DNA from: an uncultured Selenomonadaceae bacterium
Lineage (GTDB): Bacteria; Bacillota; Negativicutes; Selenomonadales; Selenomonadaceae
Assembly (NCBI GenBank): GCA_905236725.1
Contig: CAJOCT010000006.1
Coordinates: 1-42,617 of the forward strand
Length of the DNA: 42,617 nt
Direction of reading: 5' to 3'
Part shown: piece after piece, positions 34,631-36,092 of the stretch
Layout of the letters: the number at the start of each line of letters is the position of its first letter
How positions within the stretch are numbered: position 1 is the first letter of the stretch
The notes under the pieces: generated by a model
Seen by the model: the letters and a program-made list of their open reading frames with translations, nothing else
Told to the model about the DNA's origin: nothing
The model's database searches: none
Program-made: the position numbers and the translations under genes

Positions 34631-34686
34631 AAAATTTTTTTTAAAAAGGGCTTTATTATTTTTGAAAAATGTAGTAGAATACGGCA

Positions 34687-34895
34687 CGACCCGTTAACGA
34701 AGACGTTGTTTTTGTATATGGGTTGTAAAAAACTGAATAGGTTACGCCACAGTTTTGAGAGAAGTCACCAAATCTCTCACGAAGTTTAAAGACGAATCCA
34801 CCAGTCGTCTTCAGGGGGGTGTCGCGTCAGCAGTTTGAGATGAACTTATATCCAGTTATTTAGTTGGGACGAGGGCTTTTGCCTTCGTCTTTTTT
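34687..34895 (+). ncRNA. Candidate structured small RNA downstream of obg
   Basis: No reading frame fits this 330-bp gap, but it has the signs of an RNA gene. A -10 TAGAAT (34675-34680) with a weak TTTATT-type -35 lies in front and an intrinsic terminator at its end. The transcript folds well by hand: the ends pair (CGACCC at 34687 with GGGACG at 34866-34871); an inner helix joins AACTGAATAGGTT (34731-34743) to AACTTATATCCAGTT (34843-34857), with one bulge and a mismatch; ACGC-CAC pairs with GTG-TC-GCGT; two hairpins, GAGAGA/TCTCTC and AAGACGA/TCGTCTT, occupy the tip. GAAGACG (34699 on) could instead pair with CGTCTTC, competing with one hairpin. I do not recognise an Rfam family. It is neither tmRNA, SRP RNA nor RNase P RNA by conserved motifs; 6S RNA cannot be excluded on size. 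Confidence 0.55.
34868..34895 (+). terminator. Intrinsic terminator of the candidate RNA
   Basis: GACGAGGGC and GCCTTCGTC pair (9 bp, one wobble) across a TTTT loop, followed by TTTTTT. Confidence 0.85.
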
Positions 34896-34896
34896 G

Positions 34897-34925
34897 TTGC
34901 GATAAAAAAAATTTTCCTGTATAAT
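34897..34925 (+). promoter_or_regulatory. Promoter of the GT2-CDF unit
   Basis: TTGCGA (34897-34902), 17 bp, TATAAT (34920-34925), immediately after the RNA terminator and 36 bp before the ATG. It shows that the preceding RNA is not simply a leader of this gene. Confidence 0.7.
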
Positions 34926-34961
34926 CCTGCAGAAAAAAATTTAGATATGGAGTTTGAAAAA

Positions 34962-36092
34962 ATGGCTAATGAGACAGAAAATTTAAGACAAATTTTTGCA
35001 GAGAAACATCCGCAATTCAACTTGACGGCTCCTTCGATCCCTGCAGTTTCCGTGATAATTCCGATGTACAATTCTCAACGATACATCAAATCTTGCGTGA
35101 CGAGCGTTTTAAATCAGACTTTGAGAAATTTGGAAGTTATTTGCGTTGATGATTGCTCAACCGATGACACTTTTAAAATCGTCAGCGAAATTGCGCAGAA
35201 AGATAAGCGCGTAAGAGTTTGCAAACTGCCGAAAAATTCCGGCGGAGCGTCCGAGCCGAGAAATTGCGGGATAAGAATGAGTCGCGGAAAATATATTGCT
35301 TTCCTAGACAGCGACGACCTTTACACGCCGACCGCAATGCAGGAACTTTTTGTTCTGGGCGAAAAGTGGAAAGCCGACGTTGTTCACACCGAGCAAGTTT
35401 ATTTTCCGGAAAATCAGCAAATCGACGTTGACGAAAATACAAAATTTACGACTTTCAGCAAAGAGCGCGGAGGTTTTTGCAAAGAACCGAAATTGGAGAC
35501 CGATAACCTTGCCGAGCGCGTGAAAATGTTTTTTGAGGGAAAATTTTTCGGCTGGGTTCACAATAAACTTTATCGCCGGGATTTTCTCATGGAAAAAAAT
35601 TTGAAATTTGAAAAGCTGAAAACTTCCGAAGACATAATTTTTTATTTTCTGGTCATTTGCACCGCGCCTAGAATTGTCAGAGTGCCGAACATAATTTATA
35701 TTTACCGCCACAATCCCGACTCAATCACTCGAAAAATTGTCAGCATTCAAGAATCACTGCACGCGCTTACTCATTTGATGATTGAGGGGACGAAAATTAT
35801 GGACGATTTTATGGGACAAATTCCTCTCTTCGTGCAAAATCCCGCGCTCCGTCAACTGCCGATTGATTACATCGTTCAGCAACATTTAATTTGGACGCAA
35901 AGATTTTTCGACAAGTACACGGCGGCTCAGCTCGACGCACTTATCAGAAACGAGATGAAACCTTTCTGCGGCGATCATTCGGCTTTTTATGCGTACCTTT
36001 TCAGCGCGATTCACGTTTATCGGCAGAAAATGATAAATTACGAGAAAAAAATTAAAGAGCTTGAAGAACAAATTCAGAAATTAAAATCATGA
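34962..36092 (+). CDS. Family 2 glycosyltransferase with C-terminal coiled coil
   Basis: The 376-aa GT-A enzyme has VSVIIPMYNSQRYIKSCVTS, LEVICVDDCSTDDTFKIV, SGGASEPRNCGIRMSRGKYI and the metal-binding DSDD in FLDSDDLYTPTAMQELF. It ends with a charged coiled coil (KKIKELEEQIQKLKS) like its paralogue at 15754. It is about 40% similar to that paralogue by eye in the first 120 residues. Role: surface glycan or protein glycosylation; substrates unknown. GGAG lies 9 bp before the chosen ATG; an in-frame ATG five codons earlier overlaps that site. The TGA overlaps the CDF start (ATGA). Confidence 0.88.
   Translation: MANETENLRQIFAEKHPQFNLTAPSIPAVSVIIPMYNSQRYIKSCVTSVLNQTLRNLEVICVDDCSTDDTFKIVSEIAQKDKRVRVCKLPKNSGGASEPRNCGIRMSRGKYIAFLDSDDLYTPTAMQELFVLGEKWKADVVHTEQVYFPENQQIDVDENTKFTTFSKERGGFCKEPKLETDNLAERVKMFFEGKFFGWVHNKLYRRDFLMEKNLKFEKLKTSEDIIFYFLVICTAPRIVRVPNIIYIYRHNPDSITRKIVSIQESLHALTHLMIEGTKIMDDFMGQIPLFVQNPALRQLPIDYIVQQHLIWTQRFFDKYTAAQLDALIRNEMKPFCGDHSAFYAYLFSAIHVYRQKMINYEKKIKELEEQIQKLKS

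Follow-up and report, generated by a model that had tools for sequence, protein, structure and literature searches.

We analyzed a 42,617-nucleotide stretch of DNA from an uncultured Selenomonadaceae bacterium (contig CAJOCT010000006.1; hereafter the window) and found that, as judged from sequence and conservation, it encodes a real stand-alone small RNA. The RNA belongs to a previously undescribed family, so far found in one genus alone, comprising Quinella and its close relatives from the rumen. A sequence-only reading of the window had proposed an independent structured RNA of ~210 nt, and homologues, compensatory changes and a conserved promoter and terminator bear this out.

Boundaries and fold of the window RNA

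The RNA appears to have a promoter and an intrinsic terminator of its own, as expected for an independent small RNA gene, and a separate promoter-like site precedes the next gene (Table 1); all three elements had been read from the sequence. A consensus sigma-70 scan did not list the TTTATT-17-TAGAAT promoter, and the site of the next gene, TTGCGA-17-TATAAT, scores 10 of 12 matches, a level that chance alone would reach 1.9 times in the scanned region. The claim of a promoter for the RNA thus rests on conservation, the element being retained in a relative at another locus. No open reading frame of at least 60 aa was found on the plus strand within the RNA stretch, and the homologues differ by single-base indels, which argues against coding.

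The MFE of the window RNA is –66.0 kcal/mol, compared with –53.3 ± 4.2 for 200 dinucleotide shuffles (z –3.0), and two of the 200 shuffles folded equally well; the opposite strand folds more weakly (z –2.0). Of the helices drawn in the sequence-only reading, the two tip hairpins, P2 and P3, are real, the first showing compensatory changes, counted from four sequences alone, and the second keeping a near-invariant stem. The end-closing helix forms in the two closest copies but is kept only in part in the two divergent ones, and the long inner helix of 13 bp, present in the window MFE, gains no support from the relatives. The competing segments GAAGACG (34699) and CGTCTTC (34806) can pair as suggested, but the proposed switching is unsupported because the 5' element involved is missing from most family members. 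Two C-rich words are predicted to be mostly unpaired in the window fold, UCACCAAA (0.97) and UCCACCAG (0.90).

Table 1. Features of the small RNA gene and its surroundings in the window
Feature	Position	Strand	Basis and remarks
Promoter of the RNA, TTTATT-17-TAGAAT	34652–34680	+	Sequence; conservation of 87% in G013, where the locus differs
–10 element TAGAAT, with TTTATT (34652–34657) 17 nt upstream	34675–34680	+	Sequence reading
Small RNA gene	34683–34895	+	Start inferred from –10, end from terminator; fold, homologues, covariation
5' hairpin	34686–34726	+	In MFE; replaced in G013, not conserved among relatives
Closing helix, 5' strand	34731–34739	+	9 bp; partner 34857–34865
ACGCCACAG, first C-rich segment	34744–34752	+	Position shared by window-type and canonical copies; absent there in G009
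Hairpin P2, loop with UCACCAA	34757–34778	+	Compensatory change at 4 of 6 pairs
Hairpin P3, loop with CCACCA	34789–34811	+	Stem near-invariant in relatives
GGGGGGTG, Shine-Dalgarno-like, can pair with CACC loop	34814–34821	+	Sequence; relatives have GGAGG
AUG and 7-codon ORF	34840–34863	+	Position matches canonical mini-ORF; Shine-Dalgarno poor here
Closing helix, 3' strand	34857–34865	+	Partner 34731–34739
Intrinsic terminator	34866–34895	+	11 pairs at 34866–34891 plus T-run
Promoter-like site of next gene, TTGCGA-17-TATAAT	34897–34925	+	Sequence scan
Next gene, glycosyltransferase ORF	34947–36092	+	ORF list

The RNA could not be assigned to a known family, in agreement with the earlier reading. 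Scanning the whole window against Rfam 15 at gathering thresholds gave no match, and relaxing the limit to E values up to 5 for the RNA stretch gave chance-level matches alone. Like 6S RNA, the window RNA is independent, of similar length and enclosed by a closing helix; it differs in giving no match to the 6S model RF00013, and the true 6S RNA of the genome is located elsewhere (G000:C27:9036-9215). The raiA RNA of Firmicutes is likewise independent, structured and about 210 nt long, and its model, RF03072, gave nothing in the window even at E values as high as 5; a search of the RNA's own genome with that model, run without a positive control, was also empty. The models of RoxS/RsaE and other Firmicutes small RNAs in Rfam did not match the RNA, and a literature search found no description of it, nor of an independent regulatory RNA of such kind for these bacteria.

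Homologues and the canonical form

A BLASTN search over 60 relatives produced one true homologue, in a genome of the same genus (G013). There the RNA occupies another locus, ahead of a yggS-like gene, and obg is on a separate contig. The two copies align at 87% in the promoter stretch and 79% in the core and differ by single-base indels, and the 5' domain of the window copy is replaced in G013. Directly upstream of the G013 copy, between a gene labelled X and the RNA, there is an apparent remnant of a transposase gene (L002:900-1300). A 28-nt match in G028 (L003:1501-1528, minus strand; 93% to window 34819–34846) covers the extreme end of a coding gene, may be due to chance and was not taken as a homologue. 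Obg-linked loci fetched from other members of the genus contained no copy of the RNA.

With a covariance model of these two sequences, one further, divergent copy turned up in each of the two genomes (G013:C96:295-426 and G000:C5:38837-38969); the remaining genomes of the genus and 200 genomes from the class gave no match. Common to the four copies are ACGCCACA, the P2 loop UCACCAA, the P3 loop CCACCA, GGAGG or GGGGUG, RAUGA and the terminator. An exact pattern scanned over the family returned the four known copies alone, plus chance coding matches, and a synteny search with gene X confirmed copies in G013 and G009 alone.

Searching 189 genomes of the family with the four-copy model gave four weak further matches that could be chance on their E values alone. 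Three of them, however, represent one RNA locus, located before ispG in each of three species, and a fourth species also has the locus; the match in G009 and the G013 copy both follow the same gene, a synteny that played no part in the search. The ispG-linked form consists of ACGCCACAG, a P2 inner loop UCCCC, the P3 loop CCACCAA, GGGAGGUGAGAUAUG and a terminator. In G062, a sub-threshold match to the RAGATH-18 RNA (L132:1103-1160, plus strand; 35.7 bits against a gathering threshold of 44.9) precedes the ispG-linked copy by about 200 nt.

Scanning the named genome collection with a pattern identified ten canonical loci along with the known G013:C96 copy (L188), all labelled as Selenomonadaceae from ruminants and one as 'Quinella sp. 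1Q5'; the remaining matches were chance coding matches. With a model built from the ten loci, the canonical RNA was found in 30 of the 66 genomes of the genus, with E values from 1e-32 to 2e-14, and in the other genera of the family no canonical copy was detected beyond one marginal match (E 0.035). The genomes are largely metagenome assemblies, and the lack of a detected copy in about half of the genus may represent absence, incompleteness or divergence.

The covariation analysis of relatives that had been called for brought out compensatory changes in both forms, as an independent small RNA gene would show. Among the 30 canonical sequences, 98% of the paired cells are standard, and 9 of the 18 pairs, with 39 cells, are changed on both sides. 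None of 500 shuffles did as well, and sliding the structure along the alignment reduced the pairing to 9–48%. The loops UCCCC and CCACCAA, predicted to be mostly unpaired, are invariant in 30 of 30 copies.

The window-type and canonical RNAs share signatures that agree in order and identity. All versions have a terminator and two hairpins whose loops are rich in C (P2, UCACC or UCCCC; P3, mostly CCACCAA), and nearly all have ACGCCACA; the register and loop of P2 differ between the two types. Global alignments compared against dinucleotide shuffles gave z values of 5.6 for L063, 5.5 for L065, 3.2 for L064, 3.0 for the window and 2.3 for L093, all somewhat inflated, since likeness to the window type was what first led to the canonical members. 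The last of these copies (G009, minus strand) lacks ACGCCACA before P2 and has a similar AACGCCACA after P3, as if the elements were permuted.

Within the family, the window copy ranks as a divergent paralogue that has a different promoter and, before its AUG, a decayed Shine-Dalgarno sequence. Its lack of the canonical promoter repeats and of that Shine-Dalgarno sequence, together with the unconserved 5' domain, is what one would see if it were a functionless, decaying duplicate of a real family. We consider this highly unlikely, as the promoter, both hairpins, the closing helix and the terminator are conserved with the G013 copy at another locus and P2 has undergone compensatory change.

Promoters and neighboring genes

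Wherever the 5' flanks of canonical copies were examined, a divergent malic-enzyme gene was found on that side. The genes on the 3' side vary, including ispG, glycosyltransferase-like, glutamine-synthetase-like and others, and the neighbor of copy L064 is convergent. Thus, the constant downstream gene of one pathway that would mark a cis-acting leader was not found, and the varied downstream genes and the convergent neighbor point to an independent gene. A leader role, either as a riboswitch or as an attenuator with the terminator as its switch, would explain why ispG starts directly after the terminator in four genomes, with no obvious promoter between them. Given the variation in downstream genes, the copy facing a convergent gene and the promoter-like sites that follow the window copy and the rpsT copy, we regard such a role as the most improbable of the explanations weighed. 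Structured RNAs of the same bacterial class, the ldh2 and gltD motifs of Negativicutes, are leaders found directly before ldh2 or gltD genes, and the ldh2 motif has a three-stem junction (PMC8632094). By description, they are set apart from the present RNA, which is independent and has varied neighbors.

The canonical promoters contain TTCTAA-N5-CTCTAA repeats, which have a period of 11 bp and end ~11 nt before TATAAT. Copies L064 and L065 have related YTTAA-type repeats, and the window and G013:C42 copies have none of these repeats. In L226–L255, TCTAAT direct repeats of the same period stand at a distance of 50 nt before the canonical RNA. Such a period and placement ahead of the –10 element is the geometry of OmpR/PhoB-type activator sites. 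Membership of the Pho regulon was considered but gained no support: the pst operon of G073 (L335, G073:C15 from 39601; order pstB-phoU-pstS-pstC-pstA-phoB) has a promoter with three TTAACA-type boxes before TATAAA, in contrast to the TCTAAT repeats of the RNA promoters, at the same 11-bp period. As the boxes differ, the canonical RNA promoters are probably controlled by an OmpR-family protein other than that of pst. A search of genome G073 for a second promoter like that of the RNA gave no strong match. In two genomes with no detected copy of the RNA, G066 (L285) and G032 (L267), TCTAATGACAATCTAAT-TATAAT promoters precede the gene for a secreted proline-rich protein, and the regulator acting there is possibly the same as for the RNA.

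Possible modes of action

Several small RNAs of Firmicutes offer precedents for the C-rich loops. RsaA is C-rich and binds Shine-Dalgarno regions (PMC3961350), and the C-rich regions of RoxS and FsrA act on Shine-Dalgarno regions as well (PMC8216469). RoxS is activated by the OmpR-family protein ResD (PMC8216469) and is tied to malate metabolism. Like RNAIII, RsaA, RoxS/RsaE and FsrA, the RNA described here is independent and carries C-rich words that could pair with Shine-Dalgarno regions, placed in loops that the predicted fold leaves accessible and that are invariant. As with RoxS, the canonical copies appear to have an OmpR-family activator, and they adjoin a malic-enzyme gene, a likeness to the malate link that is by neighborhood alone. 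The differences are the lack of an Rfam match, other hairpins, loops with UCACC or UCCCC and CCACC in place of UCCC and, as a feature of the new RNA, a near-invariant ribosome-binding site with a mini-ORF.

Because of the C-rich loops, predicted to be mostly open, and the precedents of RsaA, RoxS and FsrA, we favor a trans-acting small RNA whose loops would pair with the Shine-Dalgarno sequences of target mRNAs, and hold it about as likely as not. The RNA would be transcribed from its own promoter, ended at its own terminator and expose words that are for the most part unpaired, with GCCAC close to its start, UCACC (or UCCCC) in the P2 loop and CCACC in the P3 loop. These are complementary to GGUGG, GGUGA and GGGGA, sequences of the Shine-Dalgarno type, and pairing with the ribosome-binding sites of targets, as we infer it, would block or retune translation. 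A scan of the translation starts of G073 for complements of the loops found exact matches to be rare and without a theme, and no target emerged.

The invariance of the loops would also fit a protein partner and in this respect counts against the trans-acting model. CsrB-type RNAs titrate CsrA, and the RNA might similarly bind and titrate a protein through repeated YCACCAA loops. The window-type copies do have two near-identical loops, UCACCAA and CCACCAA, and the loop sequences are invariant within each type; on the other hand, each RNA offers two sites and no more, the P2 loop of the canonical form is UCCCC, and no known protein of such specificity was identified. We judge titration to be quite improbable.

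The trans-acting model also leaves the invariant ribosome-binding site unexplained. In the canonical copies, GGUGAGAYAUG is near-invariant and located ahead of the terminator. Of 29 copies, 22 reach a stop codon within three sense codons; 2,000 shuffling trials gave 7.3 such copies on average and never more than 15. The residues encoded by the mini-ORF are not conserved. The main rival to the trans-acting RNA is built on these observations and takes the ribosome-binding site and the one- to three-codon ORF as the working part, ribosomes being loaded on a start-stop minigene that serves as a decoy or a sensor of translation, with pairing between CACC of P3 and GGUG of the Shine-Dalgarno sequence closing the site. 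The count of short ORFs is suggestive but no clean test, since the related copies do not count as independent. ORFs in six or seven of them are longer, a good Shine-Dalgarno sequence is lacking before the AUG of the window copy, and the CACC–GGUG pairing is missing in some window-type copies. We thus rate this reading as rather unlikely. Its stricter version, in which the conserved structured domain governs the ribosome-binding site through P3 loop–Shine-Dalgarno pairing and the output is ribosome capture instead of a peptide or a downstream gene, seems to us decidedly unlikely.

Quinella-like bacteria inhabit the rumen and are known mainly from metagenomes. For them, the results add an RNA family that is well supported, lies outside Rfam and has a clear consensus, ready to be sought in rumen metatranscriptomes. 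Its invariant C-rich loops, near-invariant ribosome-binding site and almost immediate stop codon pose a testable question of how a small RNA uses ribosomes.
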